Part shown: one piece after another, positions 11,016-33,755 of the stretch
Layout of the letters: every line of letters starts with the position of its first letter
How positions within the stretch are numbered: the first letter of the stretch is position 1
DNA from: Candidatus Angelobacter sp. Gp1-AA117
GTDB lineage: Bacteria > Acidobacteriota > Terriglobia > Terriglobales > Acidobacteriaceae
Length of the DNA: 64,000 nt
Direction of reading: 5' to 3'
NCBI GenBank assembly: GCA_003223515.1
Contig: QHVI01000042.1
Span: 1 to 64,000, forward strand
Program-made: the position numbers and the translations under genes
The notes under the pieces: model-generated
The model's database searches: none
What the model saw: only the letters and a program-made list of their open reading frames with translations
Told to the model about the DNA's origin: nothing

Positions 11016-11066
<51 letters not shown>

Positions 11067-14500: not shown

Positions 14501-15513
14501 ACAGTTGTGGTAAGAACGGGCGGTTTTGTGGCAACCCCGGTTATCAGGTTGAGATCACTAACATGAACACTTGCAGTGATTGAGTTGCTCGCCACATCAA
14601 TAATGTCGAGATTCCCTATATCAGAATCACCCACAAATACTTTGGAACCGTCGGATGAAACTGCAATCTGGGTCGTCGCCCCACCGACTGGAATTGTTGC
14701 GGCTACAGTATTTGTTGAAGAATCCACGGCAAGTACAGCACGGGGACCTTGCGTTGAGGAGCTGCGCACGTTAGTGAGATAGATTCGGTTTCCGTTGGGC
14801 GTTACGGTGATTCCGGAGATTCCACCATCTGCACCGGCTATTGTGACCGCTTGGATAAGGGCATCGTTTCGGGCATCTACAACATAGAATATCGGCCCTC
14901 CAGCCTCTCCGATGTAAGCACGGCTGCTGTCGGGCAGAAATGAAATACCTGTTGGGAGTGTCGAAGACATTCCGGCAATCTGATGAATAACTGAATTCGT
15001 TGCAGGGTTCACGACAGCAACGCCGTTCGATCTAGTGCTGACGTAGATGCGGCTGGCGTCTGGACTGATCGCGATTCGGACAGGGTTGCCCGGAACCGAA
15101 ATTGTGGAAATGATCGAATTATTCGACACATCTATGACAAAAACCGATGACGAGTCGAAATGAGCGACATACAGCCTCTTGCCATCAGGTGAGAGGCAGC
15201 TCTCAAATGGGTTAGCGCCTACCGGAATGGTCGTTACGATAATATTCGTTGCAACGTCAATGACGTCTAAGCCATTGAATGCTGAAGCATACAAGCGAGA
15301 ACCATCCTGGCTCGTTGTAAGGAAGGTAGCGCTGGTAGGAATTGTGGCCAGAACCGACCTTTGGGAAGAATCCACTGCGGAAATCCCATTTCCCGAAGTC
15401 ACATAGACGGTCTGAGCACATGCGCTCTCAGAACTCAGAACCAAGAGTACACAAAATACTTGTATGGAAATAATCCATTGGATGATTTTCACCGTCAGAT
15501 TGTGATGCCGCAT
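11530..15513 (-). CDS. Large exported multi-propeller protein (YVTN, PQQ-like and BNR/sialidase-like domains)
   Basis: 1327 residues from ATG 15513, chosen because GGAGGGGGAG lies 5 bases upstream; a start 19 codons earlier has no such signal. The signal peptide ends near ESACA. Residues about 30-340 are YVTN-type propeller blades (PDGKRLYVAHF, VIDVSNNSIISTI). About 350-770 look like a PQQ-type propeller with a short fibronectin-like segment after it. About 790-910 are a BACON/Ig-like module (VPVTFTVTP). About 930-1320 have the Asp-box-like S-x-D-x-G-x-S/T-F/W patterns of BNR/sialidase folds (STDGGQSFGD). No sialidase arginine triad was located, so catalysis is not claimed. It is cargo near the left end of the island and reads toward that end. 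Confidence 0.8.
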   Translation of the reverse strand: MRHHNLTVKIIQWIISIQVFCVLLVLSSESACAQTVYVTSGNGISAVDSSQRSVLATIPTSATFLTTSQDGSRLYASAFNGLDVIDVATNIIVTTIPVGANPFESCLSPDGKRLYVAHFDSSSVFVIDVSNNSIISTISVPGNPVRIAISPDASRIYVSTRSNGVAVVNPATNSVIHQIAGMSSTLPTGISFLPDSSRAYIGEAGGPIFYVVDARNDALIQAVTIAGADGGISGITVTPNGNRIYLTNVRSSSTQGPRAVLAVDSSTNTVAATIPVGGATTQIAVSSDGSKVFVGDSDIGNLDIIDVASNSITASVHVSDLNLITGVATKPPVLTTTVVSQLFYGDTVASQRIITQLAVDNTGNVISFTLQTAAGCGFGICGAVIYSIAPDGLPNWISSETNFVGHTVNEFAISPNNNILFQDTFSLGEIRGLSASGVPLPNWPVFLGSALDTFSPSLLIDPVDQSVLVKGGAASAFLPPSTRTASFQQDGTIKWTADFPAGADNTPGMLIGPNNNLYTFSDHTVLVDRNDGHKICEFPFAGGDSFVPITGGDGLAFSYTNFGVQRSDSGCLAFPIYNWETNRRGQLLDYDQGVVFAFDLPLNNIPGTPRFIAITKDGALLWHNDLINAESIVAIKQGLVYVVGIDTVAGSDQKLFVVNENDGSIAKSIDLIAICPACVKVAVGSSGVYVGDASSTRIFKINGIGPVSVGTIQVITNNSAATFTITGPATYTGKGMSFTQPNAPAGVYTIQYQPVAGYSTPPNETKTLTSGATLLFSATYSLIRTPKLTVSPGTLAFSAIDGFLGHIPVQSVSINTDIGFPVDVSISLSTTSGGQWLSVGGSSGTTPIILAVRVSMLPIGKYSGNIRITSSSVSNNPIDVPVTFTVTPLVPYTVLPTVYPTGVTPEAESTIARARSQLAAAITDLSTGRFLTQLATSSDSGNSWMHSLISSGTADNLDWSNVADPVIAMGRDGAIYVAEVHLSGSANGLYVAAGSSTDPPIRRDQIHRVTANTSSFASTCEDKPWITVDNSGSSFDGTIYAVWDHLFVRSHAGCENGNLLRKLLSPLFWGPPDQSRIMISVSHDRGISWSQPKSIGGGPGTSVFGPQVAVAPNGSVYVVYQIGASGTNVGYAITLSTDGGNSFADSFIATPSIIPPNFSFIDHRLSSPAMAISPLTGEIAIAFADQAADGTTRIKVVTSTDGGQSFGDPVTVNDTQVGNRFRPVLTYDDFGILHIAWIDTRKATDNRSFDIYASYAADGGTQFAPNTRLTLTTITSSVGDFIGDYNGGAAVQGSAWFSWAAGSVDRSKNTGNGKLAVGQAIVPGINQ

Positions 15514-15694
15514 CGAGACTCCCCCTCCAAGCCTTAGTTTGCAGACGAAATAGTCCTTATGCATGTTCATGTCGAGGCAAATCCAATCACATATCGCTGT
15601 TAGGGGGAGTTAAGCTTTATGGGCATAAAATTCTAAATGCGAGTACTCAGTACATGCAAGATAAAAACCACAAGAATATGGAGGGGTCTGAATA

Positions 15695-16423
15695 TTAAGG
15701 GATTTCAATCCTGAAATACTGTGAAAGCATTCCTGTACCATCCGTGAAGAATTTCGCTTGCGCTCCTGACGCTTTGAAGTAATCCGTCCAAAATTCCCGA
15801 ATTGCTTTCCTACGGCTGTCACTCATGGCGGCATATTCATGGCTGAGAAGCAACCCCAAATAGACCTGAACATTTTCTAAACTCTGAGCTGAGTGCATAC
15901 CCAAACTTTTTACCGTCGTGTTACCGCCAAAATAGTGGTAGGCGTTGAAATCAGTATTCCGATCTTCCTGAATGAAATCGCTTAGAACAATGAGCAGCCG
16001 CCTTGATTTTTTATCTATTTGAAATTCTTGCCCGGCCAGGACAATTGATCCGAGAATGTCGGTCTTTGCGCCAGGATGGGCATCTGCACGAGCCTCCATT
16101 TGTTGCAAGGCGCTTCTAAGTTTCACTCTGAAATCACGCAAGTCACTGTCATACGCTTGGCGATTCATAGGCATTTCAAATCTTATGATCCGTCCTGATG
16201 CTTCAGCCTCGGCGTCACCCAAAATGGGAATAATGGCGATTTTGTCTCCACGGCGAAGACTTCCAGACAGTTCATCAATCGCCTTGAACGCCTGCTCTAG
16301 CGCGCTTGGCTCAATACTCCCACTGACGTCTGGCAGGATGACAATGTGCCGTCTTTCCTGCTGCTTGCTGCACCCGAAGAGTGCAACAAGCAGCAAGACA
16401 AAACCTAATATTTTTCTTTTCAT
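15695..16423 (-). CDS. VWA-domain lipoprotein
   Basis: 242 residues. A short signal sequence ends in a lipobox (VALFGC, Cys18), so the product should be a lipid-anchored envelope protein. The von Willebrand factor A domain has a complete metal-ion-dependent adhesion site: D-x-S-x-S at residues 32-36 (DVSGS), Thr121 (AKTDILGS) and Asp149 (VLSDF). Such domains bind protein partners through Mg2+. Its ATG overlaps the stop of the membrane protein upstream (ATGA), so the two are translationally coupled and probably work together. It is the last gene of the long leftward train of the island. The partner is unknown. Confidence 0.75.
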   Translation of the reverse strand: MKRKILGFVLLLVALFGCSKQQERRHIVILPDVSGSIEPSALEQAFKAIDELSGSLRRGDKIAIIPILGDAEAEASGRIIRFEMPMNRQAYDSDLRDFRVKLRSALQQMEARADAHPGAKTDILGSIVLAGQEFQIDKKSRRLLIVLSDFIQEDRNTDFNAYHYFGGNTTVKSLGMHSAQSLENVQVYLGLLLSHEYAAMSDSRRKAIREFWTDYFKASGAQAKFFTDGTGMLSQYFRIEIP

Positions 16424-17610
16424 TCTGGCAACTCCTCTTTGTTGTTCCGCACACGTCCGAAAGCACCGACCGGACGATCAGCAGCATGGGCATCCTTGGC
16501 GGGTATGACAAACTGGACATGCTCAAGATCAAAGAATTCAATCCGGCTAGGAGTCCGCCACTGCCTGCGGTAATAAAGAAAAGCAGCCCACCAGGCCACC
16601 ACAGGAAACAGTACAAAGAACGGCGAGATAAAGAAGATGAACCAGCCAGCAGCAAGAAGGGCAAAAAGCGCCGCGAAGGTGGCTTTGGCAATCACAATCC
16701 AGTAAGGCTCCTGCTTTGCGCCGTGCTTTGTCCCGCGGTCATGATGCAGGCTGTAAACCGATTTCCACTGCTTGCGCTCTTCATCAAGGGCTTTGAGTCC
16801 AAGCTGAAGAGCTTTCTCCTGGGCCTCCAATTCCTTGACTGCTTGAGCACGTCTCTTGGACAGCGCCTCAAATTTCCTCTTGGCGGTTTTCCATTCCCAC
16901 CATCCCTGCATCCGGTGAGCGCCGTAGTGGGTTGCTGTGGCAGCAATTACTGGCGTCGCCAGGGTGATGAACACGAAAAAGATGGATGAAAGAATCGGGT
17001 GGCCTGAAAGGAAATCTCCAAGCGGGTTTTGATTGAGTGACGCCGCAAATGCCACCTGAAAGCCTCTCAAGATTCCCCAAACGACCAATCCAAAGGCGAG
17101 CATGGCGGCCACCACCCGGATTGTCACTTTCCAGATGTTCGGGAATGCCTCTGAAATGAAACTCTCCCAAACAAAATGGAAAGTCAGGCCCGCAACAGCG
17201 GCAAGCCCAAAGGCGGTAAAGAGTTGGGCAATTTCATTGGTGACATTGAGAATGTCCATTGCCGGGGCAAGCAGCAGCGCCTCAGAGATGATTGCAAAAA
17301 GTGCCAGGATGACAACCACCACGGGAAGCACTATCGAAAGCTGCTGTTCGCCATTCTTTTCCTCAACAGCCTGCACTTTGCGCTCTACTGCTGGCCCGAC
17401 CTCATCCAGGTGTTTTATTTCCGCTTCCAGCCGCTTCTGGTTGGTAACAGCGTCTCGCTGCAAATTGGCTTTCTTTTCTTCAAATTTTCCTTCGATTTCC
17501 TCAATTCCTCTTTCAATGGGGCTTCCATGCGCTCCGTCATAGAATCCGTCGCATTCGACCCTGCGCTCTTCGTTAAGTCTTGACATTAACGTCGGTATTG
17601 CCAGTTTCAT
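16420..17610 (-). CDS. Coiled-coil integral membrane protein, unrecognised
   Basis: 396 residues. About 30-90 is a charged helical region (EEIEGKFEEKKANLQ) predicted coiled coil. Then come about six hydrophobic segments (roughly 92-115, 128-150, 160-185, 205-230, 305-330 and 333-350). A second long charged helix (about 240-285) lies between the last two groups. Long cytoplasmic helices on a membrane anchor suggest a scaffold or channel-like role. It overlaps the VWA lipoprotein by 4 bases. An intrinsic terminator lies just upstream, so it and the lipoprotein may be expressed at a lower or separate level from the rest of the train. No family recognised. Confidence 0.65.
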   Translation of the reverse strand: MKLAIPTLMSRLNEERRVECDGFYDGAHGSPIERGIEEIEGKFEEKKANLQRDAVTNQKRLEAEIKHLDEVGPAVERKVQAVEEKNGEQQLSIVLPVVVVILALFAIISEALLLAPAMDILNVTNEIAQLFTAFGLAAVAGLTFHFVWESFISEAFPNIWKVTIRVVAAMLAFGLVVWGILRGFQVAFAASLNQNPLGDFLSGHPILSSIFFVFITLATPVIAATATHYGAHRMQGWWEWKTAKRKFEALSKRRAQAVKELEAQEKALQLGLKALDEERKQWKSVYSLHHDRGTKHGAKQEPYWIVIAKATFAALFALLAAGWFIFFISPFFVLFPVVAWWAAFLYYRRQWRTPSRIEFFDLEHVQFVIPAKDAHAADRPVGAFGRVRNNKEELPE

Positions 17611-17637
17611 TTTGAATTCTCCTTAAAATTTCCATAC

Positions 17638-17669
17638 AAAAAAGGAGCCTGCCTTGTTAGGCAGTCTCC
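17638..17669 (-). terminator. Intrinsic terminator or attenuator inside the island gene train
   Basis: On the minus strand GGAG-A-CTGCCT, loop AACA, AGGCAG-G-CTCC is followed by six T residues (17643-17638). It lies 7 bases after the stop of the 78-residue coiled-coil protein and before the 396-residue membrane protein, so it would separate the last two genes of the train unless read through. Confidence 0.75.
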
Positions 17670-17675
17670 AAAGTG

Positions 17676-17912
17676 TTACTTGGCCTGAAGAAGTTTTGTG
17701 GCGTCCTGCATTTTCTTGAGCTCGCCTTCTTCTTTGGCAAGCTCTTTGCGCAGTTCGGCAACTTTTTCTTCCTGCTTTGCAACCTGCTCAAGAATGATTT
17801 CGACCGGGGTTTTCTTGATCCACGGTTTACGCTTTTCATTTCCTGATGCTCCGGCTGCTCCCGCTTGAGGGCCGCCAGAGCTTTCAGTTTGGCCTTTCTT
17901 CTGAGCTGTCAT
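17676..17912 (-). CDS. Small coiled-coil protein, hypothetical
   Basis: 78 residues. The N-terminal third is a disordered-looking G/A/S/Q-rich stretch. Residues about 33-75 form one long amphipathic helix with heptad spacing (VAKQEEKVAELRKELAKEEG), very likely a coiled coil. AGGAGG is well placed inside the preceding gene, whose stop overlaps this start (ATGA), so translation is coupled. No known family; it may pair with the coiled-coil region of the membrane protein downstream. Confidence 0.65.
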   Translation of the reverse strand: MTAQKKGQTESSGGPQAGAAGASGNEKRKPWIKKTPVEIILEQVAKQEEKVAELRKELAKEEGELKKMQDATKLLQAK

Positions 17913-18088
17913 CTGTTCCTCCTTTCCTGCTGTTTTTGTCGTTTTCGTTTTTGTTGCTGCCTGAGGTTGTCCCTCAGAGCTGTTCGCACTAGGCTGATGT
18001 CCACTTCAAAGCCGCGGAGCGCCTTTAGCGACAAGCGGTAGTTGCCTTGCCCAAAGGCTTTGAGAGCCTGTTTGCAGCGTTGCTGCAT
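17909..18088 (-). CDS. Small basic protein, hypothetical
   Basis: 59 residues, ATG 18088 to TGA 17909-17911. The sequence starts MQQRCKQALKAFGQGNYRLS and ends in a very basic Q/K/R-rich tail (QQQKRKRQKQQERR). The composition suggests a helical, nucleic-acid-binding or protein-binding peptide. The 4-base overlap with the next start (ATGA), and the fact that the next gene's ribosome-binding site encodes its last residues, make chance unlikely. A competing frame (18006-18227) over the same DNA lacks these signals. Unrecognised. Confidence 0.55.
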   Translation of the reverse strand: MQQRCKQALKAFGQGNYRLSLKALRGFEVDISLVRTALRDNLRQQQKRKRQKQQERRNR

Positions 18089-18132
18089 AGTTGAAAGCCG
18101 CTCTTTGACGAAATTGATACCGGAGCAACTTT

Positions 18133-18411
18133 CTACTGGCCGCTTTCAGGCTCAGGGTCTTCTTCCTCAACAAGTCCTGTAGTGGCCTTTTGAGAAAGGT
18201 TTTCTGCGGCGTTTTTGCAAAGCTCACAGGATTTCACGCTTCGCCCTTTGTGGCGGCTGGTCTGTTCTAAGACCTGCGCCTGGACATCCTCGGTTTTCAG
18301 TTCGTTTACTTTTGCTTCTGCTTTTTCGGCAGAGAGGTTATGAGCAATCGGAGTGAATGTTTTAGTCTTTTCATCCACTCTCAGCACCGCTCTGAGATTT
18401 TCTTCGGTCAT
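18133..18411 (-). CDS. Small hypothetical protein with a paired-cysteine motif
   Basis: 92 residues, ATG 18411 preceded by AGGAGG at 8 bases. The central part (about 20-50) is predicted helical. A CELC pair (about 62-65) with neighbouring K and H residues could be half of a metal site in a dimer. The C-terminus is acidic (EEEDPEPESGQ). No family recognised. It lies in the row of small island proteins between the integrase and the membrane protein, all on the same strand. Confidence 0.6.
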   Translation of the reverse strand: MTEENLRAVLRVDEKTKTFTPIAHNLSAEKAEAKVNELKTEDVQAQVLEQTSRHKGRSVKSCELCKNAAENLSQKATTGLVEEEDPEPESGQ

Positions 18412-18448
18412 CTGTTTTGTCCTCCTGTTGTTTGGTTTTGAACTGGAC

Positions 18449-18512
18449 GCTCCACTGGATCAGGAAGACTCTCCGGAGGGAAGAATCAGCCTGTTTGGAT
18501 TTCCAGTGGAGC
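18449..18512. repeat. Inverted repeat between two small genes of the train
   Basis: Arms 18449-18459 (GCTCCACTGGA) and 18502-18512 are exact complements, with a 42-base interior holding a further palindrome (CTCCGGAG). No T-run follows on either strand, so it is not a standard terminator. It may be a structured leader, a processing site or a protein-binding site. Confidence 0.45.
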
Positions 18513-18569
18513 GGTTAAACTTTCCTGTTTCCAATCAGGCTCGGGTCTTCCTAGCCAGGCACTAGAGCA

Positions 18570-18716
18570 TCAGCGAAACGGGCTGAACGCGCCAAGAAGG
18601 CCTTTAACTGTCCCGGCAATGATCCTGCCGCCCTCACGGGCAACACCTTTGCCGATCTTTGCGGCCTCGCTCTTGGCTTTTCTGGACAGCGCCTTTCCCA
18701 AACTTTTCTTCGGCAT
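18570..18716 (-). CDS. Small basic glycine-rich protein, hypothetical
   Basis: 48 residues, ATG 18716 with GGAGG 6-8 bases upstream. The N-terminus is lysine-rich (MPKKSLGKALSRKAK) and the C-terminal half is a glycine-rich, mildly hydrophobic segment (REGGRIIAGTVKGLLGAF) that could be amphipathic or membrane-associated. Composition is reminiscent of small phage or bacteriocin-like peptides, but there is no specific match. It sits 26 bases after the 70-residue gene in the same direction. Confidence 0.5.
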   Translation of the reverse strand: MPKKSLGKALSRKAKSEAAKIGKGVAREGGRIIAGTVKGLLGAFSPFR

Positions 18717-18742
18717 CTCTCTTCCTCCTTCTTTCTTTTCGC

Positions 18743-18955
18743 TTATTTCTGGCTGATTCGGGCTGCGGTCTTAAGAACCGTGTCAATGAATTTGAACTGC
18801 TCTTCCATGCCGGCAAGCGTTCCCAAAGCGGCCAGGTGTTCTTGTTTTTGCAGGTAAGCGATGATCTCGGCAAAGCGCACGGAAATTTCTTTGCTTTCAA
18901 GCAGCGCTACCTGCGTGAGCGCTTCGATCAGTTGTTTCTGCTGAATCTTGTCCAT
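18743..18955 (-). CDS. Small helical protein following the integrase, hypothetical
   Basis: 70 residues. AGGAGGT is ideally placed before ATG 18955, inside the last codons of the integrase gene (59-base overlap), so it is translationally coupled to integrase. The sequence is all-helical (EALTQVALLESKEISVRFAE, then AYLQKQEHLAALGTLAGMEE) without Cys or catalytic motifs. Position suggests a recombination accessory or regulatory protein, but this is inference. Confidence 0.6.
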   Translation of the reverse strand: MDKIQQKQLIEALTQVALLESKEISVRFAEIIAYLQKQEHLAALGTLAGMEEQFKFIDTVLKTAARISQK

Positions 18956-19982
18956 CTACCTCCTTTGCAAGTTTTTGAAGTTCTCCTTCCCGCCACTCTT
19001 CGAGCTTCCTGATGGCTTCCCGCAAAAGCGGCAGCTCAATGTGGCTGTAAAGGTCATTGGTGTCCTCGTTTCGGCTGTGACCCATCAGTTCCTTGCGGAC
19101 GTCTTTGATCACGCCCGCCTCAATGAGCCGTGAATTGAAGGTTGAGCGTAGATCCTTGAAGCGATACGCTTGGATCTTGGCTCTTTTGAGCGCGCCTTTC
19201 CAGGCGGTCTTGATCCGCTGGATGGACTGCTCTTTGAAGGTGAAAATCAACCCCTCCTTTTGCTGCTCTTTGGAAAGCAGGTCAAAGAGGCGAGCCGTTA
19301 AAGGGATTTCGCGGTGTTCGCCTCCTGCGGTTTTTGAGTGGGTCACTGAAATGATCCTGCGGGAAAAATCAATGTCTTCCCAAACTTGGGTAAGGATTTC
19401 TCCCCGGCGCATGCCACTGTCGAGAGCGCAGATGATGATTTTCTGAAGGTGCAGCGCTGCGCCTTCAATGACCTTCATCTCATCTGCCACGCTCATTACC
19501 GGGCGTTTCTTTCGCCTGGGCTTTTCAAGATGAAGCCGTGCCAGCGGGTTTGCAGGCAGTATTCCCTCATCCACAGCCCAATAAAAGATGTGGCGCAGGG
19601 CCTGGACATCTCGGTTCACTGTTGTTTCCGTGAGTACCTTTTGGCTATGGCGGTGCGCCCTGTACTGCCTGAGGAGCGCCTTATTGATTTGCCCGATCTC
19701 GTGGTTAGCGAAATACGGCAAGGTCATTTTCAGCCGCTCTCTTTGGTAAGGCTTGGCAGCACCTTGAGCAAGAAAGCGGGTGGCAAGCTCGGCAAACTTC
19801 ATGCTTGGGTTAAAGTCCTGCGCTTCGACCTGAAAGCGTCTTGAAAGCAGCTCTTCTTCATGCTTGCGGTCAATTGATTGGGCAAGCCGCTTGTTGGTGG
19901 TTCCGGTTGACTTGCGGTAGCGCACACCGTCCATCATGATGTGGCTCTCGTAAACGCCGCTTGGACGTCTCCACAGACTCAC
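18897..19982 (-). CDS. int: Tyrosine recombinase/phage-type integrase
   Basis: 361 residues, GTG start at 19982 with AAAGGAGG upstream, overlapping the stop of the excisionase-like gene (GTGA). It has an N-terminal arm-binding region, a SAM-like core-binding domain (about 62-150) and a catalytic domain with Arg192 (SGMRRGE), Lys217 (HSKTAGGEHREIPL), Arg279 (FKDLRS), His302 (MGHSRN) and Tyr312 (LYSH). The usual His of the H-x-x-R box is Lys276; this occurs in some integrases, so activity is still likely. It is the best candidate to have integrated the island at tRNA-Pro. Unusually, it is in the middle of the gene train and about 8 kb from the nearer island end. Confidence 0.9.
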   Translation of the reverse strand: MSLWRRPSGVYESHIMMDGVRYRKSTGTTNKRLAQSIDRKHEEELLSRRFQVEAQDFNPSMKFAELATRFLAQGAAKPYQRERLKMTLPYFANHEIGQINKALLRQYRAHRHSQKVLTETTVNRDVQALRHIFYWAVDEGILPANPLARLHLEKPRRKKRPVMSVADEMKVIEGAALHLQKIIICALDSGMRRGEILTQVWEDIDFSRRIISVTHSKTAGGEHREIPLTARLFDLLSKEQQKEGLIFTFKEQSIQRIKTAWKGALKRAKIQAYRFKDLRSTFNSRLIEAGVIKDVRKELMGHSRNEDTNDLYSHIELPLLREAIRKLEEWREGELQKLAKEVDGQDSAETTDRSAHAGSAA

Positions 19983-20182
19983 AGCAAATTTCCTCCTTTC
20001 TGTTCCTTTTGTTTTTCAAGAATCCAAGCGACGACCTGGTTTCGGTAAAACGTCAAGCGGCCGCTCGGCCCGGAGCGAAAGCATGGGAGTCCTGCTCTCA
20101 AATGCTTTTGCCGGACTGTCCAGGCCGAACAGCCGAGCAGACGGCTTACCTGTTTCACGTTCATTGGTTCACCTAAGTCCAT
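19979..20182 (-). CDS. Excisionase/AlpA-type helix-turn-helix protein
   Basis: 67 residues from ATG 20182; ATG 20164 is an alternative with AGGTGA before it. The sequence VKQVSRLLGCSAWTVRQKHL is a MerR/AlpA-like winged helix in which the recognition helix follows GCSAWTVR, and FYRNQVVAWI is the usual end of the HTH_17 fold. Excisionases of this type bind attachment-site DNA and bias the integrase toward excision. The stop overlaps the integrase start by 4 bases, the classical xis-int arrangement. Confidence 0.75.
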   Translation of the reverse strand: MDLGEPMNVKQVSRLLGCSAWTVRQKHLRAGLPCFRSGPSGRLTFYRNQVVAWILEKQKEQKGGNLL

Positions 20183-20214
20183 ACTTCTTTGTTCCTTTTT
20201 GCTTAGGGCAATGC

Positions 20215-20235
20215 CTAGGGCACTAGCTGCCCTAG
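20215..20235. promoter_or_regulatory. Palindrome upstream of xis-int
   Basis: Arms CTAGGGC (20215-20221) and GCCCTAG (20229-20235) around a 7-base centre, 33 bases before the Xis start. A second GGGCA lies next to it at 20206-20210. The position fits an operator or an integrase/Xis arm site. No clear -35/-10 pair was placed. Confidence 0.4.
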
Positions 20236-20239
20236 CCAA

Positions 20240-20329
20240 TCACCCTTTAAGCCCAATTTCTACTTGCGATTTCTGAATCCTTCCAAATCCGACTCCGTAC
20301 CAATCCCATTCCGTATTGGTTCCCCGCAT
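20240..20329 (-). CDS. Possible 29-residue peptide upstream of xis
   Basis: ATG 20329 to TGA 20240-20242. AGGAGG lies just before a double ATG. The sequence starts MRGTNTEWDWYGVGFGRIQ. The Shine-Dalgarno is strong, but the frame is so short that it could be a leader peptide or chance. No match is known to me. Confidence 0.25.
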   Translation of the reverse strand: MRGTNTEWDWYGVGFGRIQKSQVEIGLKG

Positions 20330-20395
20330 CATTCCTCCTCACAGCTTCATTGCTCCTGCTCCGCATCCGCTCTCCTGTATTCGTTTCACATCCAA

Positions 20396-20812
20396 TCACT
20401 TCTTATGTCCCTTCTTTCTAAAGAGCCACCGGATAGGGCTTCTGATAAAGTTCGGGAGCATCATCCAGACAAGGAACAAAAGACCTAAGAGAAAACCAAT
20501 GCACATCAGCGGCAAAAGACCGTTTGGGTCAATAAAGAGCTTGTAGACAAAGAAACCGACAAAACCGACGAGGGAGAAAATCAAAATGATTCCAACCAAA
20601 TGCGACAAAAGGAAAATCAGGGGTTTCAACAAAAATGGAATTTTTCTTTGCGGGGTGCTCAGTTCCTTGCTGCCGCACTGTGAGCAGACGTTTGCAGAAC
20701 GCGGACTTATATGCCCGCGGGAGCAAAGCCTGACGTTATAGGTCTTGCCGCAGTAGTGGCAGTAGGATGGAATTCCTGTTGTCACTCTTCCGCAGCTAAA
20801 ACAAAGCTTCAT
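20396..20812 (-). CDS. Double zinc-ribbon membrane protein, hypothetical
   Basis: 138 residues. The first 50 residues hold two zinc-ribbon-like knuckle pairs (CFSCG, CHYCG, then CSRG and CSQCG), similar in layout to DZANK/zinc-ribbon modules. Two long hydrophobic helices follow (about 58-90, FLLKPLIFLLSHLVGIILIF; and about 100-120) with a basic tail (RKKGHKK). The start overlaps the stop of the replication-relaxation gene by 4 bases (ATGA). It is probably a membrane-anchored adaptor for the neighbouring ATPase or DNA-processing proteins; this is inference from position. Confidence 0.65.
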   Translation of the reverse strand: MKLCFSCGRVTTGIPSYCHYCGKTYNVRLCSRGHISPRSANVCSQCGSKELSTPQRKIPFLLKPLIFLLSHLVGIILIFSLVGFVGFFVYKLFIDPNGLLPLMCIGFLLGLLFLVWMMLPNFIRSPIRWLFRKKGHKK

Positions 20813-21597
20813 AAACTCCTTTCTAAAAGTGAGAGCTTCTGACCGCCCTCTGGACGAAACCAGATGGCAGACCAGAAGCCTTCACGCTTAATTTGCTCTA
20901 AAGTCGTAAACCAGAAAATCTTTTGCGTTTGCTTCAGAACCGTTTTACGGATTGACTCAGCACGGCGGTCTGAAGAAGCAATAACCAGCACCCGGAACTG
21001 TTCCTGCTGGAAAAGCTTCCGAAATGTCCCTGCGAGGGCAAGCTCCAAATACAATGTGGTTTTCTTAGTCCAGACCTTGAGTGTTTCTGTGCCGCAATCG
21101 ACCTCAATAAATGCAGCACGGACTCCGAGCGGAGTTTCAATTTCAAAATATCCATCGGGAACAAGCGGGATTGATTTTGTTAATGGTTCTGCAAATGACC
21201 GAAAGCGAAGCACCTTGAATTCCGAGATGGGAGTAAGACGGCAGGCAATGTGAATGTCATTGACTGCAAGCTGATGATTAACAAACGGGTCTCCTACAAG
21301 AAGCGTTTCTTTGGGGCGGATCACTGGCCGGTTTAGAACTTCTGCAACCTGGGCGCCCTTAGGTGAAAGTGTGTAAAGCGCTTTTGAGCCGCCCTTGTAG
21401 GTTCCAAGAAAATACCTGCGAAGAAAGCCGTTAACGGTCAGCTTTAGAAGCCTTGCATTGGCGCGAGTCTGGGAAGTAAAGCCGGCAAATTTCATGGCCT
21501 GCTCCCGGTCAACCAGCCGCGCGTCTCGCCCGAGAATCCTGAAGAATTCAAGATCGCGTTTCTGCAAGATCATCCGCTTTGGGTTATTCCCACTCAT
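20809..21597 (-). CDS. Replication-relaxation family protein
   Basis: 262 residues. The N-terminal part is a winged helix with the typical opening of the family (LQKRDLEFFRILGRDARLVDREQAMKF), followed by LYTLSPKGAQVAEVL. The central part holds a nuclease-like core pattern: F-x-V-x-R-x-R-S-F near 145-152, PDGYFEIE near 167-174 and FIEVDCGTETL near 183-193, which resembles the D...E-x-D spacing of restriction-like folds. The family is found on mobile elements and is linked to plasmid relaxation and transfer. It overlaps the ATPase by 14 bases and the zinc-ribbon gene by 4, forming a tight three-gene block. Confidence 0.8.
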   Translation of the reverse strand: MSGNNPKRMILQKRDLEFFRILGRDARLVDREQAMKFAGFTSQTRANARLLKLTVNGFLRRYFLGTYKGGSKALYTLSPKGAQVAEVLNRPVIRPKETLLVGDPFVNHQLAVNDIHIACRLTPISEFKVLRFRSFAEPLTKSIPLVPDGYFEIETPLGVRAAFIEVDCGTETLKVWTKKTTLYLELALAGTFRKLFQQEQFRVLVIASSDRRAESIRKTVLKQTQKIFWFTTLEQIKREGFWSAIWFRPEGGQKLSLLERSL

Positions 21598-23014
21598 CCA
21601 ATTCCTCCTTTGCTGCGTTGCTCACCTCTGGAACCCTGCTTTGAATTTCTGCTTCGATTTCCGTGCGAGTCCTGGCCCACAGCTTTTGCGACCGCTCATA
21701 GAGATTTCTGAAGTCGGTTTTGAGGGGTTCCACCTTGGGCGCAAGAACCTGTTTCCAAGAGTCGCTTCCGGTTTTCAGCACAAAATTTCTGAGCGGCAGA
21801 TTTCTGAGCAGTTCTGAGAGGCTCTTTCCGCCATCAAGCGCCTGGGCCATCTTGTCGGCGTCACCACTTGAAAGCTGGAAACAAACGTGAGTGCCGATTG
21901 CAAGCACAGCAGAACGCAATTGCGGCGGGTATTGATCGAGATACTGGTTTGCGGCAACAATCCCTATGCCGAACTTGCGAAGTTCTGAAAACATCACTTC
22001 GAGTGAAGATTCGCTTGAAACCAGATTCTGGATTTCGTCGGCGTAGATGGTGAACAGATCGCGCTTGCTTCTGGCGAAGGCCGAGTTCTTGAGTTTTGCA
22101 AGCAGCACGCTTGCAATGAGTGCGGTCTGCTCACCGAGACGATTCTTGGGAAGAGCCAGAATGATGAAGCAGCCAGCATCAATCGCTTCAATCAAGGAAA
22201 AGGTTGATTCCTTCTGTCCCAGGATGTGCCGAAAGTGCGGGTCTGCGGTAAATGCAGAAGTTTTGTTCAAGACCGGATTAGTCATGCTCCGCCGCATGGC
22301 ATCCGAGGCCTCCCCAAAGCGATTTTCAAAGTACGAGCGGACTTCTGCGTTGCTCACTCTTCCCATGAGCGAGAGCCGGAAGGCGCTGTTGGTGAGAAAC
22401 GGGGCAAGCTCAACAAGGGTTAAGGAATTGTCCGAAAGGACGTGCAAAGAATTTCTGAGCAGTTCTTCTGTCTGCGGCCCAAAGTTTTCAAGGTGCGCGT
22501 GGTTTCTTATTACGCTTGAGATTTCTGCAATCTGGATGAATGCTGAAAGGCCTGAACGAATTTCGAGCGGGTTCAACCCTAGGCAGTACTGTGGGTCAGA
22601 GGGGTCAATGATGATTGTTCTGTCGCTTAGGTCACGACCTGTGCGCTTTTCCTGCTCGGCAATGGCGGACAAAATGCGCTTGTGGTCGTCGTGGAACTTG
22701 ATGGCAAGAAATCCTCGGCCTGCCTTGATGTCCTGCTCAATCAGGCAGTCAATCAGGCTTGATTTGCCTGTGCCGTTCCGCCCAAGCATCAGCGTGTGCC
22801 GCGCCCTTTGCTTTTGGCTCAGGTAAACCTTGTACTTAGTCGGGAGGTCATCGCGAATGAGGAATCCCAGGAGCAGCCCCGCTGAAAGCGCCTTGGGCTT
22901 TTTCGTAAAAGCCCAGTTCCAGAGTTTTGAAAAGATTTTTTCCAAAAATCCACTCATGGCGTTGAATGCTTGAATTGTTAGGCTCTGTTTGCTTTGACTT
23001 TGCAAGGTGTTCAT
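21584..23014 (-). CDS. HerA/TraG-type ATPase (DNA-transfer or packaging-like)
   Basis: 476 residues from ATG 23014; a TTG at 23035 would add 7. A hydrophobic segment near 40-55 may be a membrane anchor. Walker A is GRNGTGKSS (about 78-86), Walker B is FTIYADEIQN (about 315-324), and a sensor-like AANQY lies near 350. The layout matches the TraD/TraG/VirD4-HerA class of motor ATPases that move DNA through membranes. It directly precedes the replication-relaxation gene, a pairing typical of mobilisable elements. No relaxase, VirB4 or other secretion proteins are visible here. Substrate recognition probably depends on island-specific partners. Confidence 0.8.
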   Translation of the reverse strand: MNTLQSQSKQSLTIQAFNAMSGFLEKIFSKLWNWAFTKKPKALSAGLLLGFLIRDDLPTKYKVYLSQKQRARHTLMLGRNGTGKSSLIDCLIEQDIKAGRGFLAIKFHDDHKRILSAIAEQEKRTGRDLSDRTIIIDPSDPQYCLGLNPLEIRSGLSAFIQIAEISSVIRNHAHLENFGPQTEELLRNSLHVLSDNSLTLVELAPFLTNSAFRLSLMGRVSNAEVRSYFENRFGEASDAMRRSMTNPVLNKTSAFTADPHFRHILGQKESTFSLIEAIDAGCFIILALPKNRLGEQTALIASVLLAKLKNSAFARSKRDLFTIYADEIQNLVSSESSLEVMFSELRKFGIGIVAANQYLDQYPPQLRSAVLAIGTHVCFQLSSGDADKMAQALDGGKSLSELLRNLPLRNFVLKTGSDSWKQVLAPKVEPLKTDFRNLYERSQKLWARTRTEIEAEIQSRVPEVSNAAKEELDEWE

Positions 23015-23115
23015 CCCTGTTGATTTCTTTCTCAAGCAGGATGAAACAAAGGTGGGGTGGATATGTAGAGTGACCCTATGCGTTTTTTGTCACACCGGGG
23101 AAATGAGAGGAAAAA

Positions 23116-24249
23116 TCAGAGGTTACGGAGAGCATTAGCGCGCAGGACTTGCTTGATCCAGCGGCTCTTTTGGGTAGGCGTAAGCTTGAGGTCGGGTGTA
23201 ATTGAAAGAAGTCTTGAAACCGTGGCTTGCCTGCCGAACGGATCTATGAGGGAAGCATTGGAAAGCAGGAGCTTGAGAGCGCCCTGCTCAACCTTGGAGT
23301 CATTGGTCAGAAAGCCTGCGGCAGTGGTGTAATTGACATTGATCGCATATTCCAAACTGTGTTTGCCGAAGGTCTGTTTGACTTTTGAAAGCAGTTCCTG
23401 CGCTCCGTCCCAATTCGGCGTTTTTCCAAGCAGGTTAAGAAAGCGGCTGCCGATCATCTGGACATGGTTTTCATCTCGCGCCTCGGCCTTATCGCTTGCT
23501 CTCTGCATCGCCTCAAGAAAACACTTTTTGGCATCGTCTTCAAATCCGAGATGGAAATATGCGGAGCCGCGCTGCCGGAAGTGTTCTGAGCCTCTTGGAT
23601 TCTTTGCCGCTTCTGCTGCTTGTTCTGCAAGCCAGAGGATAGCCAAAGCATAGGATTCGCTTCTGTCCTGGCCTTCGGCTGAAAGATGCGCCGCCATTGA
23701 GACAATCAGAGCGGTTTCAACGTAGCGGTTTAGATCAAGGCTGTCCCAGGAATCTTTGTAAGCCTTTCTTGAAAGCCACATCGAGAACTGGCCATGATTG
23801 AGTGCGCTTTTGACCTTTCCTTGCTGGACTTCAAACCATGCGATGAGATGGTGAATTCGCGCCCTGAGCCTCACCCTCTTTGGATTGGTCGGGGCACTGA
23901 CCAGATCTAGCAAGCCCTTAAGCACCCTCGCGCCTTCTTCAAACTGATACGTGCTTGCATACTCATTGAAAATCTCTTCAACTTGCCATTCAAGTGCTTC
24001 AAAGGTTTTGCGCTTTTTGCCATAAAGCAGGAATTCTTTGAGTTGCGCCTGCCTGATTGGTGGCGCAGGCACTTCAAGTGGTATTGGGTTGGGATGTTGT
24101 GCCCTCTCGCTGATCTTGCGAATATTGACGGCGCTTTCGTTTAGCAGGTCTGATATTCGTTTCGCAGAAACACCGAAACTTCTAAGCAGCTCGATCTCCG
24201 GCCCCATGTTCCGGGCTGCTGTCGCCGCCTGCTGCTTCTTTCTCACCAT
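23116..24249 (-). CDS. HTH plus TPR-like helical-repeat protein, probable regulator
   Basis: 377 residues. A short N-terminal helix-turn-helix-like stretch (IELLRSFGVSAKRISDLLNE) is followed by 300 residues of helical repeats (LAEQAAEAAKNPRGSEHFRQ; AYFHLGFEDDAKKCFLEAMQ) resembling TPRs. This is the layout of peptide-responsive or mobile-element regulators, but no specific family is recognised. The start at 24249 overlaps the methylase gene by 68 bases; an internal ATG at 24207 would shorten the overlap. The gap of about 100 bases to the ATPase start may hold a promoter. Confidence 0.6.
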   Translation of the reverse strand: MVRKKQQAATAARNMGPEIELLRSFGVSAKRISDLLNESAVNIRKISERAQHPNPIPLEVPAPPIRQAQLKEFLLYGKKRKTFEALEWQVEEIFNEYASTYQFEEGARVLKGLLDLVSAPTNPKRVRLRARIHHLIAWFEVQQGKVKSALNHGQFSMWLSRKAYKDSWDSLDLNRYVETALIVSMAAHLSAEGQDRSESYALAILWLAEQAAEAAKNPRGSEHFRQRGSAYFHLGFEDDAKKCFLEAMQRASDKAEARDENHVQMIGSRFLNLLGKTPNWDGAQELLSKVKQTFGKHSLEYAINVNYTTAAGFLTNDSKVEQGALKLLLSNASLIDPFGRQATVSRLLSITPDLKLTPTQKSRWIKQVLRANALRNL

Positions 24250-25135
24250 CGGTTTTAACGCTCTGAGTAATCTGATGTTCTGCGGCAGGTTCTGGATTTT
24301 TCAAATCTTGCAGCGCGGTGCTTGACGCTGCATCTGAAACTCCCGGCGTTCTCCCCTTGTCAACCGTGGCAATGGGCAGACTGTAATTGGAAATTAGGAC
24401 TTCTTTGTAGAGCTTGCCTGCCTTGCGCTGTGAGCTGTAAGAAAAAGTCAGGCCGTGGATTTTGAAGTCTACAAATATCTCGCGGATTTCAGGGGTGTCA
24501 TTAAGCGAAAGCAGGAACCGGCCTTTAAGCGCCTTGAGCAGGTTTGCAAGCTCAATGTAGTCGTCTTCTGTGAAATTGAATTTGTAATATGGGCGGTTAA
24601 AGTACGGCGGGTCAAGATAAAAGAACGTGGTCTCCCTGTCATAGCGTTTGAGGATTTCCTGATATGGCAGGCATTCAAGCTGGACCTGAAGCAGCCGCTC
24701 ATGGGCAAGGTGCAGCACCATTGGAATACGGTGCGGGTTGTAATTGGAACCGTCCTGGACGCTGACTGCAAAATTCTTTCTGGTGATCAATCCTCCGTAG
24801 CAATTTTTCTGAAGATAGAAGAAACGGGCTGCGCGCTGGATGTCTGAAAGCGTCTTTGGGTCTTGGTTCTGGAATAGCTCAAACCATTTGCGGCTGGCAA
24901 TACAGAACTGCAAATACCGGACAAGCTCCTGATGATGAAGCTGGCAGACCCGCAGGAAATTGAAAACTTCCTCATCAAGGTCATTCAGGATTTCAACCTG
25001 GGATGGTTCTTTGTGAAAGAAGACCTGAGCGCCGCCGCAGAAAGGCTCGATATAACAGGTATGCTCAGGAATGAGTGAAATTATTTTTTGGGCAATGCGG
25101 TTTTTGCCGCCTAAGTAGGCAAGTGGGCCGACCAT
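24182..25135 (-). CDS. DNA adenine N6-methyltransferase (Dam/D12 class)
   Basis: 317 residues. Motif X-like opening PLAYLGGKNRIAQKI (4-18), AdoMet-binding motif I PFCGGAQVFF (31-40), NDLDEEV (about 51-57) and catalytic motif IV DPPYF (175-179) are in the order of the alpha class (D12). The last 60 residues are a non-conserved acidic tail that overlaps the downstream gene. The protein transfers a methyl group from S-adenosylmethionine to adenine; GATC is usual for Dam relatives, but the target here is unknown. No cognate restriction enzyme is adjacent, so it is a solitary methylase, common on phages and integrative elements for protection or regulation. Confidence 0.85.
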   Translation of the reverse strand: MVGPLAYLGGKNRIAQKIISLIPEHTCYIEPFCGGAQVFFHKEPSQVEILNDLDEEVFNFLRVCQLHHQELVRYLQFCIASRKWFELFQNQDPKTLSDIQRAARFFYLQKNCYGGLITRKNFAVSVQDGSNYNPHRIPMVLHLAHERLLQVQLECLPYQEILKRYDRETTFFYLDPPYFNRPYYKFNFTEDDYIELANLLKALKGRFLLSLNDTPEIREIFVDFKIHGLTFSYSSQRKAGKLYKEVLISNYSLPIATVDKGRTPGVSDAASSTALQDLKNPEPAAEHQITQSVKTDGEKEAAGGDSSPEHGAGDRAA

Positions 25136-25147
25136 TTGTTTGAAAAA

Positions 25148-25603
25148 TTAATTTTGAGAAAGCAGGCGTTCGGTCTGAATATACAGGCCGATCAGCGCCG
25201 CATCGAGCGCTGGCAGTTGTTCCTTTGCAACCTGCGGCCAAAGCGAACGGGCAATGCTCCTGAGTTCATGCTTTTGCGTCAGTGCCGGAGTTGCATAAGC
25301 CTCAAGCAGTTCCCTATCACTCACCTTCCAGACCGGAATCCCCTGCTCCCGCAGGCGGCTTTCGACAATGCCCGTCAAAACCTCTGCCCGTAGCTTGTTG
25401 TCGTCTTCATCGGTTGCCAGTGCCGCAAGTTCCGGGTGGAAATTCTCAAGAATCCAGCCGACAAAGCGGTGGACTCCCTCGCTTGCTGATTTCGGGTTAT
25501 TGGAAAGATGCTTAATGTCTATGTACTCCAGGCCGCGCCCGGAAAAAATAGCAGCAGTAGCTGACCTTCTGAAAATCTTGAAGGCCGCAAGTCTTGATTG
25601 CAT
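25148..25603 (-). CDS. Hypothetical island protein
   Basis: 151 residues, in the same direction as its neighbours with 12-base gaps on both sides, so it belongs to one operon. Mixed helical sequence with a conserved-looking centre (HRFVGWILENFHPELAALAT) and KVSDRELLEAYATPAL. No cysteine pairs, membrane segment or nucleotide-binding motif. I do not recognise it; position between an XRE regulator block and the methylase suggests an element-maintenance function. Confidence 0.55.
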   Translation of the reverse strand: MQSRLAAFKIFRRSATAAIFSGRGLEYIDIKHLSNNPKSASEGVHRFVGWILENFHPELAALATDEDDNKLRAEVLTGIVESRLREQGIPVWKVSDRELLEAYATPALTQKHELRSIARSLWPQVAKEQLPALDAALIGLYIQTERLLSQN

Positions 25604-25615
25604 GAAAATTGTTTC

Positions 25616-25855
25616 TTAATTGATTTCTCTAAGCTGAAACATGAAGGCCTCGCCTGTGAACTGCCCTTCTTTTGCGCAGCGGCGGTAAATGTCAATCAGG
25701 CGGTCTTCCGGGTGGTGCTCAAAGAGAACCGCGTAATGCCGGACTGACTGGAGATCATTTAGCCTTTTGGCGATTTGCAGGGCAAGGTATTCTCTGGGTT
25801 GTGCGGGACGGAAAGGGCCAAACGAGTCAGCCATTTTCTCAAGAATGTTGCTCAT
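25616..25855 (-). CDS. Small hypothetical protein coupled to an XRE regulator
   Basis: 79 residues from ATG 25855, which overlaps the stop of the XRE gene (ATGA); a longer frame upstream is in the XRE coding region and is unlikely. The sequence is helical (REYLALQIAKRLNDLQSVRH, then HPEDRLIDIYRRC). No known family. The tight coupling to the regulator suggests a co-regulator or antitoxin-like partner, which is inference only. Confidence 0.55.
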   Translation of the reverse strand: MSNILEKMADSFGPFRPAQPREYLALQIAKRLNDLQSVRHYAVLFEHHPEDRLIDIYRRCAKEGQFTGEAFMFQLREIN

Positions 25856-26133
25856 ACGTCTTTGGAGAATTTCTGTTTGAGCTTTGTCTCTTTGACCTGC
25901 TCGACCTCGCCTTGCCACTGCTTGTACTCCTTTGGAAACATGTCGCGCCCGTCGGCATCAAAGACCATCTCCAATTTTGATTCCACTGGAAAGGAAGGCA
26001 GCACCTGTCCATGCTCGTACTTTGAAATCATAGTGCGGTCTTTCAAGCCGACAAGCGAGGCAATCTGCTTTTGCGAGAGATGGCGCAGCTTCCTAAAAAA
26101 GCTGAGGCGGTTTGGATATTGCTCTTGGAGCAT
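25852..26133 (-). CDS. XRE-family transcriptional regulator
   Basis: 93 residues. The helix-turn-helix covers about 9-60: FFRKLRHLSQKQIASLVGLK, then DRTMISKYEHGQVLPSFP, the classical Cro/C1-type fold. It is the first gene of the 10-kb leftward train and is divergent from the small gene at 26342. The 208-base spacer between them contains one copy of the 30-bp repeat at 26199-26230. It is the obvious candidate master switch of the train. Confidence 0.8.
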   Translation of the reverse strand: MLQEQYPNRLSFFRKLRHLSQKQIASLVGLKDRTMISKYEHGQVLPSFPVESKLEMVFDADGRDMFPKEYKQWQGEVEQVKETKLKQKFSKDV

Positions 26134-26745: not shown

Positions 26746-26952
26746 ATGGACATTCTTTCCGCACAAACCGAAGACCAGATCAAAGATGATCTGGTCTTGC
26801 TGCATCGTATTTATCCCGATCTTGATCGCAAGCAGCTTCTTGAGGCCAAAGAGAACTTGGACCGCTATTTTGACTTGGCAGTCCGCATTTTCCTGCGGCT
26901 GGAGCAGAACGAATCTCCGCAACTGCTTGACCCCACCGAAGAGAATTCCTAA
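26746..26952 (+). CDS. Small helical hypothetical protein upstream of the recombinase
   Basis: 68 residues; TTGGAGC lies before ATG 26746. The centre is one helix-rich segment (DRKQLLEAKENLDRYFDLAV, then RIFLRLEQ). The gene ends 52 bases before the GTG start of the serine recombinase, in the same direction. It may be a small accessory (recombination directionality) factor, but this is guesswork from position. Confidence 0.6.
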   Translation: MDILSAQTEDQIKDDLVLLHRIYPDLDRKQLLEAKENLDRYFDLAVRIFLRLEQNESPQLLDPTEENS

Positions 26953-30061: not shown

Positions 30062-30120
30062 AATCTTGTCCGCTTTGAAGTCCACCAAAATTATGCGATT
30101 TTCGTGGACGGTTATATACG

Positions 30121-30170
30121 GCAAGAGGTCTGGATGCTACCGCGAAAGAAAAAAGAAATGCAAGAGGTCT
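30121..30170 (-). promoter_or_regulatory. Direct repeat in the HipA-like gene promoter region
   Basis: GCAAGAGGTCT occurs at 30121-30131 and again at 30160-30170, 39 bases apart (close to four helical turns). On the minus strand a TTGCAT and TAGCAT pair with an 18-base spacer lies between and beside them, a possible sigma-70 promoter. This is a candidate repressor site for the kinase gene. Confidence 0.4.
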
Positions 30171-31648: not shown

Positions 31649-31688
31649 TCGGCTCCTCCAATTTGTCCGGCTGACCCGTGATCGTAGC

Positions 31689-33704: not shown

Positions 33705-33755
<51 letters not shown>

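Follow-up and report, generated by a model that had tools for sequence, protein, structure and literature searches.

The window analysed here is the whole stretch of 64,000 nucleotides (positions 1 to 64,000 of contig QHVI01000042.1) from Candidatus Angelobacter sp. Gp1-AA117, a member of the Acidobacteriota, and it contains a leftward operon of seventeen genes, which is the core of a recurrent mobile element. This assignment follows from the order of the operon genes, kept in 25/25 distinct loci, and from the position of five loci between direct copies of one half of a tRNA gene. We regard the element as probably an integrative mobilizable element (IME), which possesses its own relaxase and a coupling protein split between two genes and borrows the type IV secretion system (T4SS) of a helper. 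It lies between attachment repeats together with an integrase gene, and the scanned proteins include a relaxase candidate and no complete T4SS. A first-pass annotation, made from the sequence alone, had proposed an undescribed mobile system without a relaxase gene. The mobile nature of the system and the recurrence of its gene order in other genera are confirmed, and no account of it was found among the open-licence papers listed for Acidobacteria or PF13814. The novelty that had been rested on the absence of a relaxase is not supported: profile search recognised a hidden relaxase (PF13814, phrog_9381), a result which the annotation had itself named as a reason to give that claim up.

The element spans 22.7 kb (11016–33751) and is thus larger than the segment 15695–26133 to which it was first assigned. 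The repeat search between the two flanks identified a 47-bp direct repeat, with a left copy at 11016–11062 and a right copy at 33705–33751 (both on the minus strand, 45/47 positions identical), including an exact 32-bp stretch, for which the chance expectation is about 1e-10 (64 kb, equal base frequencies). The repeat corresponds to the 3' half of a tRNA-Pro(CGG) gene. Comparison with intact tRNA-Pro(CGG) genes elsewhere revealed that the right copy matches the 3' half of those in L009, L054 and L132 exactly and differs from that in L056 by one substitution and from that in L130 by two (here and below, G denotes genomes, with G000 the own genome, C contigs, and L sequence stretches or loci). 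A low-GC block coincides with the element (0.45–0.53 in 1-kb steps over 11–34 kb, mostly 0.53–0.62 outside), and further low-GC stretches occur in the window at 37, 51–53 and 59–63 kb. Neither copy of the repeat belongs to an intact tRNA gene, and the 64-kb window contains no tRNA gene according to ARAGORN and no Rfam family. The own genome possesses an intact tRNA-Pro(CGG) gene on a different contig (L009) and more half copies on several contigs. Because the window lacks an intact tRNA gene and copies are found on several contigs of the own genome, the window element is probably part of a tRNA-Pro array.

To identify relatives of the operon, 61 genomes were searched by protein sequence and 399 genomes of the class by profile. 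Ten strong loci (E < 1e-80) were found in 6 of the 399 genomes, four of them in the own genome, and 13 more genomes gave weaker matches only (1e-15 to 2e-4). The ATPase profile, run against named genome contigs, revealed 20 loci, five of which (L095, L097, L099, L111 and L112) duplicate already known ones (G031, G129, G371a, G016 and G227, respectively) and were excluded from the counts. Eighteen of the 20 records are labelled as Acidobacteria or members of the phylum; the other two carry the labels Planctomycetota and Parcubacteria, which may be binning errors. No match was obtained when the named genome contigs were scanned with a single Replic_Relax protein. The tblastn searches of plasmids with two PF13814 proteins from the own genome yielded one weak match in one search and none in the other, and the plasmid search with the ATPase returned 59 records, all below 60% identity.

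The conserved order is Dam, ATPase, Replic_Relax, ZnMem (a zinc-ribbon membrane protein), Xis, Int, p78, CCmem (a coiled-coil membrane protein) and VWA, as scored for those genes that lie no more than 7 kb from the anchor gene and on the operon strand; two of the 25 loci are contig ends holding only Dam and the ATPase, and some loci (L100, L103, L109) are closely related to one another. The ATPase is present in 24 loci, Replic_Relax and ZnMem in 23 each, and Int in 22 (in 21 of them nearby on the operon strand); since several loci are truncated by contig ends, the absences are upper bounds. On contig C127, Dam is set apart, on the opposite strand. The tree of 21 ATPases (FastTree) groups the window copy with that of G031, which belongs to another genus (support 0.998), and places the three other copies from the own genome elsewhere, C27 with C174 and C127 apart. 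In the Replic_Relax tree the window copy clusters with G031 and G371b (support 0.941). Both trees speak for horizontal movement of the element. The first-pass annotation had suggested looking for recurrence next to different tRNAs; in 5/5 loci with both ends mapped, the target is tRNA-Pro(CGG), and other targets are possible, as discussed below.

The product of the Replic_Relax gene (20809–21597, minus strand; 262 aa) is a candidate MOBC-type relaxase by its family, predicted fold and motif, and may nick DNA. It matches PF13814 with 63.8 bits against a cut-off of 25.3, as do, at E <= 0.001, all 23 aligned sequences (the window copy and a second, distant copy from G129 included), and it matches phrog_9381, "replication initiation by nicking", with E 4.6e-11. 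The residues D148, E165 and D167 are invariant in 23/23 sequences, likewise P147, E171 and K179. Plasmid pAM373, assigned to type MOBC by MOB-suite, encodes a 261-aa "replication-relaxation family protein" (PF13814, 27.1 bits), with a gene for a coupling-type ATPase near it; D152, E170 and E172 of this protein match D148, E165 and D167 in order and spacing, and we take them to be the catalytic residues of TraX. Coluzzi et al. 2017 (PMC5357655) treat PF13814 and the MobC relaxase superfamily as one and the same, and a 2025 review relates MOBC relaxases to the PD-(D/E)XK nucleases and describes the N-terminus of TraX as a winged helix (PMC12857230).

The predicted full-length structure of the Replic_Relax protein (pLDDT 91.0) agrees with such a composition: a winged helix is followed by an alpha-beta-beta-beta-alpha-beta domain. 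The N-terminal part superimposes on winged helices of the MarR type, at best with Z 9.3 (rmsd 1.9 over 74 residues), and Foldseek with the full-length model returned mainly winged helices. The second domain was also predicted alone (pLDDT 85.9), and VIA-align identified the nickase N.BspD6I as its best match (Z 8.7, rmsd 3.1–3.2, 131/166 residues), followed by BstEII and FokI, with proteins that are restriction-type or related nucleases by name filling most of the 50 rows. The nuclease assignment thus rests on the VIA-align comparison together with the motif and the family. The repeat-based search for an origin of transfer revealed nothing convincing. Two candidates for comparison were discarded: the CloDF13 record, in which the mob frames look broken and which MOB-suite classifies as non-mobilizable, and L059:7143–8195, considered as a related relaxase of the T4SS-bearing element of G004 (see below), which gave no match.

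The gene preceding Replic_Relax (21584–22957, minus strand; the start is an internal Met, the longest open reading frame (ORF) beginning at 23035) encodes an ATPase of the VirD4/HerA superfamily, for which we propose the role of a coupling ATPase. TrwB_AAD_bind was identified in 20/21 ATPases at E <= 0.001, the window copy scoring exactly at the cut-off of 20.5 bits. The NCBI TraD models match the window ATPase with E 2.8e-6 and 9e-6, far under their cut-offs, and the sequence search of the PDB identified TrwB as the best match (8e-5), before DotL (1.3e-4) and HerA (2.5e-4). The N-terminal hydrophobic segment is absent from 21/21 sequences, so that the membrane domain of a canonical VirD4 is missing; in 6/21, one internal segment at residues 164–251 exceeds the hydrophobicity threshold. 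Pairs of a small membrane protein and a coupling protein without a membrane domain of its own have been described, as in TraJ/TraI of pIP501 (PMC7434980, PMC13037476); in CloDF13, the membrane domain of MobB is essential (PMC7431656). Because the N-terminal membrane domain is absent and a subfamily of this kind is known, we classify the ATPase as working like a type IV coupling protein, not as a canonical VirD4. The partner is probably ZnMem (20396–20812, minus strand), a double zinc-ribbon protein in which C4, C7, C18, C21, C30, H34, C43 and C46 are invariant among 19 sequences, 18 of which possess two hydrophobic segments; by analogy with the two-protein systems, it probably anchors the ATPase at the membrane.

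The tyrosine integrase Int (18897–19982, minus strand; PF00589, 5.5e-18) follows a gene for an Xis-like helix-turn-helix protein (19979–20239, minus strand; weak matches to helix-turn-helix families under the cut-offs, 18/25 loci), which overlaps it by 4 bases. The residues R192, K217, R279, H302 and Y312 are invariant in five Int sequences and presumably correspond to the catalytic positions of tyrosine integrases; the other four aligned copies are 49–60% identical to the window Int. As first claimed, int is embedded, with 7.9 kb of the element to its left and 13.8 kb to its right, and it is placed between ZnMem and p78 in 20 of the 22 loci that have both. The element possesses also a large serine recombinase (27005–28525, plus strand; PF00239, PF07508 and PF13408), with relatives in 17/25 loci, preceded by a gene for a 68-aa protein (26746–26952, plus strand; 8/25 loci). 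In several copies, the serine recombinase and its small partner gene are divergent from the operon.

As an IME, the element would require a channel from elsewhere for its transfer. No T4SS family apart from the coupling-type ATPase was identified by Pfam among the 17 operon proteins, a scan that did not extend to the right arm at 31.8–33.7 kb. The absence of a VirB4 gene, noted at the first pass, is upheld, with the ATPase matching a VirB4 model at E 0.024 only, as is that of capsid and tail genes: none was found among 10 operon proteins with PHROGs or 17 with Pfam, which left one weak terminase-type match of the ATPase. Strong matches to the VirB4 model (TIGR00929, E < 1e-30) are present in 3 of the 6 genomes that carry the element, including the own genome, where C133 carries one (E 3.2e-52) and C77 another that is split. 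An earlier conclusion that the host has no T4SS, based on PF03135 (VirB4 in 1/8 genomes, not in the own one), was dropped after these TIGR00929 matches. TrbI/VirB10 scores above its cut-off in G000, G004, G371 and G129 and below it in G031 and G227, and was not found in G016. In the congeneric genome G004 (L058–L060, G004:C17:88280–144050), a T4SS-bearing element occupies the same tRNA-Pro(CGG), with an integrase by an intact-looking tRNA gene, VirB4, VirB6, VirB9, VirB10 and two ATPases, one similar to VirB11 and one to VirD4; its integrase was not matched to the window Int by tblastn. This element is a candidate for both a natural helper and a competitor for the site. Possible helpers thus exist in the genus, not in every host. 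Contigs C133 and C77 of the own genome (L127, L128) carry two similar T4SS-like clusters, with the VirB4 gene of C77 in two frames.

The cycle that we propose runs as follows. Xis and the embedded Int, the probable recombinase, would catalyse the excision of the element and its integration into the 3' half of tRNA-Pro(CGG), a target evident from the repeats. After excision, the protein composed of the winged helix and the PD-(D/E)XK-like domain would bind and nick the origin of the element, as its family, fold and conserved residues suggest, and the VirD4-like ATPase, which ZnMem would tether to the membrane, would couple the DNA to the type IV channel of the helper. Protection or processing of the element's DNA is probably the role of Dam methylation and of the RuvC-like protein, and the VWA lipoprotein and CCmem may perhaps, as a guess, serve in cell contact or exclusion. 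A precedent for MobC encoded together with its own VirD4 exists among IMEs and a few mobilizable plasmids (PMC5704250).

Several results weigh against a helper-dependent IME and against parts of the assignments on which it is built. DUF87/HerA matches the ATPases as often as TrwB_AAD_bind does (20/21), and unrelated P-loop proteins come close to TrwB in the PDB search (ExpZ, 1.3e-4, level with DotL). The Z-score of 8.7 for the nuclease domain is little above 7 to 8, the typical best value of the tool without a clear match; plain Foldseek of this domain gave nothing with E < 0.001 (best 0.019, nocturnin, with EndoMS second); the profile-profile comparison with three pAM373-type relaxases aligns the winged helix only (residues 16–118, probability 81.6%); and six stretches examined contain no direct-repeat array of the kind described for TraX. 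G016 and G227 gave no match to VirB4, and G031 none beyond the ATPase of the element itself; in no genome does a match reach the TIGR00929 cut-off of 643 bits. In 8 of 12 further loci searched, no tRNA-Pro half is present on the element's own contig. Of the 22 loci with both ZnMem and p78, two lack Int at its place between them, and a serine recombinase commonly lies close by, so that Int is the probable and not the established enzyme of integration. The closest rival is a donor that works without any T4SS, like ICEth1 of Thermus, in which the ATPase anchored by ZnMem would pump DNA processed by the nuclease out of the cell, to be taken up by competent recipients. ICEth1, too, is flanked by 47-bp repeats of a tRNA 3' end and encodes a HerA-type ATPase, the NurA nuclease and a restriction gene (PMC5365140), and the hosts in which VirB4 was not found and the frequent HerA matches would suit such a mechanism. 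The data on the ATPase, including the TrwB matches in 20/21 sequences and TrwB as the best PDB sequence match, do not separate this explanation from the helper-dependent one. The latter is favoured because the only Pfam match of the nuclease is Replic_Relax, the MOBC relaxase family and not NurA, and because half of the hosts possess strong matches to the VirB4 model; export in the manner of ICEth1 seems to us unlikely, though worth serious attention. Unlikely too is a self-sufficient, T4SS-independent DNA export device of diderms, built of a VirD4/HerA-type motor anchored by ZnMem and a MOBC-type nickase, in which VWA and CCmem would, in some lineages, bridge the envelope or grip the recipient.

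Other explanations deserve much less credence. The element could be a genomic island that has lost its mobility and retains leftover genes of replication and transfer: int of the C127 copy (L006 11321–12297) and the ATPase gene of L107 (3727–5085) are each split over two frames, and the own genome contains tandem arrays and tRNA-half remnants. Distinct copies in several genera and the preservation of gene order and putative active-site residues over deep divergence make an inactive island improbable. In another arrangement, the embedded tyrosine recombinase would itself be the relaxase, like TcpM of pCW3, and the serine recombinase the integrase, as could fit the position of int within the operon, the similarity of its four copies noted above and the number of loci with a serine recombinase. 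We find this very improbable, since Int is absent from its place in two loci that keep Replic_Relax, the Xis-like gene overlaps int, and the repeats are the 3' half of a tRNA gene, the usual target of tyrosine integrases. A satellite, or what is left of a prophage, with a helper phage to package it, would account for the integrase, Xis, XRE and Dam, for a weak terminase-type match of the ATPase (phrog_2666, E 0.003) and for a strong match (E 2.7e-27) to phrog_5156, a phage family without an assigned function; as the viral contigs scanned contain no relative of the ATPase and PHROGs recognised no structural protein among the 10 operon proteins, such an origin is hardly to be expected. Least probable of all is that the element carries, as cargo, an anti-phage defence cluster linked to methylation, which is suggested by the match of the ATPase to PADLOC mad8 (E 3.9e-15, 54.2 bits) and of Dam to many methyltransferase models: mad8 matches residues 50–372, the ATPase core of HerA/VirD4 type, which coupling proteins have as well, the other eight scanned proteins match no model of the system to which mad8 belongs, and a gene of the PF13814 relaxase family follows directly after the ATPase gene.

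As a probable IME with a MOBC-type relaxase candidate and a presumably split coupling protein, the element shares features with several known systems. CloDF13 (MobB and MobC, MOBC1) is likewise mobilizable, with its own relaxase and coupling protein and no channel (PMC7431656), but it is a small plasmid, in which MobB depends on its N-terminal membrane domain; the element described here is integrated and its ATPase lacks such a domain. The streptococcal IMEs with MobC and VirD4 (IME_Class_8, two elements) exhibit the same compact order of coupling protein, relaxase, excisionase and integrase, with PF13814 (PMC5357655, PMC5704250). They encode a serine integrase and a VirD4 coupling protein, whereas the present element possesses a tyrosine integrase, a separate ZnMem, Dam, the RuvC-like protein, p78 and the optional VWA/CCmem, and is found in Acidobacteriota with tRNA-Pro as the target. 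The TraX-type MOBC proteins of pAD1 and pAM373 share the winged helix followed by a D...ExE/D motif, PF13814 and a nearby gene for a coupling-type ATPase, but these are Enterococcus plasmids with further conjugation genes, and the nuclease domains are not alignable by profile comparison. TraJ/TraI of pIP501 also combines a VirD4-like ATPase without a membrane domain with a small membrane anchor (PMC7434980, PMC13037476); it functions within a full T4SS, and the available excerpts do not mention zinc ribbons. ICEth1, which donates DNA by transjugation, shares the 47-bp tRNA-end repeats, a pumping ATPase, a nuclease and a restriction-type gene, and T4SS genes are not mentioned in the excerpts of its description (PMC5365140); it differs in the type of nuclease (NurA, compared to a MOBC-type relaxase here) and, as far as the excerpts go, in its other genes. 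In the articles cited here, MobC with its own coupling protein is reported from a few plasmids and the two streptococcal elements (PMC5357655, PMC5704250). Our findings suggest that this strategy exists also in Acidobacteriota, common soil bacteria among which the movement of genes is poorly described, with the motor and its presumed anchor on separate genes, and such a two-part coupling system is testable. The element is easily missed because the family of its relaxase bears the name "replication-relaxation".

Five loci lie between direct copies of the tRNA-Pro half: the window element and those of G016 (25.8 kb), G031 (71 kb), L104 (26.9 kb) and L096 (35.2 kb), the last four with an intact tRNA-Pro(CGG) at one end. 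The 71-kb stretch of G031 may hold more than one element. A single half is present on the contigs of C127, G371b, L102 and L107. In the search of 12 further loci, the four with a half on the contig of the element are L096, L102, L104 and L107; L108 possesses a tRNA-Arg gene beside the serine recombinase, at its 3' end. Based on the loci without a tRNA-Pro half on the contig and on L108, other integration targets are possible. Pairs of tRNA halves at the same tRNA-Pro were also found in G003 and G007; the stretches compared there by tblastn contain no relative of the window genes, and the pairs are probably remnants. On C27 (123/22649) and C174 (127/18560), the tRNA-Pro halves at the two ends are in opposite orientations; the inverted halves (L008 15561, L009 618) are adjoined by 50 and 80 identical bases on C27 and C174, and both contigs start within about 155 bases of the repeat. 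The inverted halves may represent a real inversion or an assembly error. Contig C174 also carries a second small element, located between the inverted half and the intact tRNA gene, which has a Replic_Relax gene of its own and genes similar to those of type IV coupling proteins.

The operon itself consists of seventeen minus-strand ORFs running from 26133 to 15695, in agreement with the one-directional gene train and the order given at the first pass. Overlaps of exactly 4 bases, of which many were reported there, occur at 4 of the 16 junctions (Replic_Relax/ZnMem, Xis/Int, p59/p78 and CCmem/VWA), and overlaps of any length at 8. Three gaps, which precede the ATPase gene, xis and p92, measure 156–158 bp; promoter-like sites occur at chance level and terminator-like sites are fewer than expected by chance. 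The operon starts with an XRE regulator (25852–26133, minus strand, as all genes in this paragraph; PF01381, 30.4 bits), a 100-aa protein of unassigned family (25616–25918; 7/25 loci) and a 151-aa protein (25148–25603; 16/25 loci), whose profile identifies RuvC in the PDB (E 4.6e-5). The Dam-type N6-adenine methyltransferase (24182–25135; PF02086, 1e-30) is present in 24/25 loci, in 23 of them nearby on the operon strand. The next gene, between dam and that of the ATPase, encodes an optional TPR-like protein (23116–24249; weak TPR matches under the cut-off, 6/25 loci). Downstream of int lie the small ORFs p70 (18743–18955; 13/25 loci), p48 (18570–18716; among the 25 loci found in the window only), p92 (18133–18411; 5/25 loci) and p59 (17909–18088; one other locus with a relative, C174), followed by p78 (17676–17912), a core gene for a 78-aa basic coiled-coil protein, present in 22/25 loci.

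The last two genes of the operon encode CCmem (16420–17610, minus strand), a coiled-coil multi-pass membrane protein and the partner of VWA, with 4 to 6 hydrophobic segments in 10 sequences, and the VWA lipoprotein (15695–16423, minus strand; PF13519, E 2e-5, 25.6 bits, just under the cut-off of 27). In the latter, D32, S36, T121, D122, S148 and D149 are invariant among 11 sequences and form a MIDAS-like set with the DxSxS motif; the VWA profile gave no match to a solved structure. VWA has relatives in 14/25 loci, those on C127 and L102 being distant, and CCmem in 12/25, each of which has VWA as well. The pair is missing from the C27 and C174 copies, which carry tRNA halves on both sides. This loss, and the pIP501 precedent for a coupling ATPase with a small membrane anchor, stand against the conjecture of the first-pass annotation that the ATPase, ZnMem, VWA and CCmem could build a new type of envelope-spanning machine. 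VWA and CCmem are thus optional, presumably as envelope accessories.

The remaining genes of the element comprise cargo. A large beta-propeller/BNR-repeat protein (11530–15570, minus strand) has no relative in the other element loci compared by tblastn. At 30222–31690, an XRE regulator and a 338-aa partner with a weak match to capP probably represent a regulatory or peptidase pair. PADLOC gave weak single matches for the HipA-like protein and for the protein encoded at 30222–31238, and none for the VWA, CCmem, ZnMem, TPR, RuvC-like and propeller proteins. In G016, a 998-aa SMC/AAA-type ATPase is encoded beyond the VWA end (L019 15205–18201), possibly as defence cargo. The HipA-like kinase gene (29192–30124 in the window, minus strand; PF20613, 43.5 bits) is present as cargo in all four copies of the own genome, the others being L007 2947–3759, L008 12403–13245 and L006 16782–17687; in the C27 and C174 copies it lies inside the operon, between int and p92.

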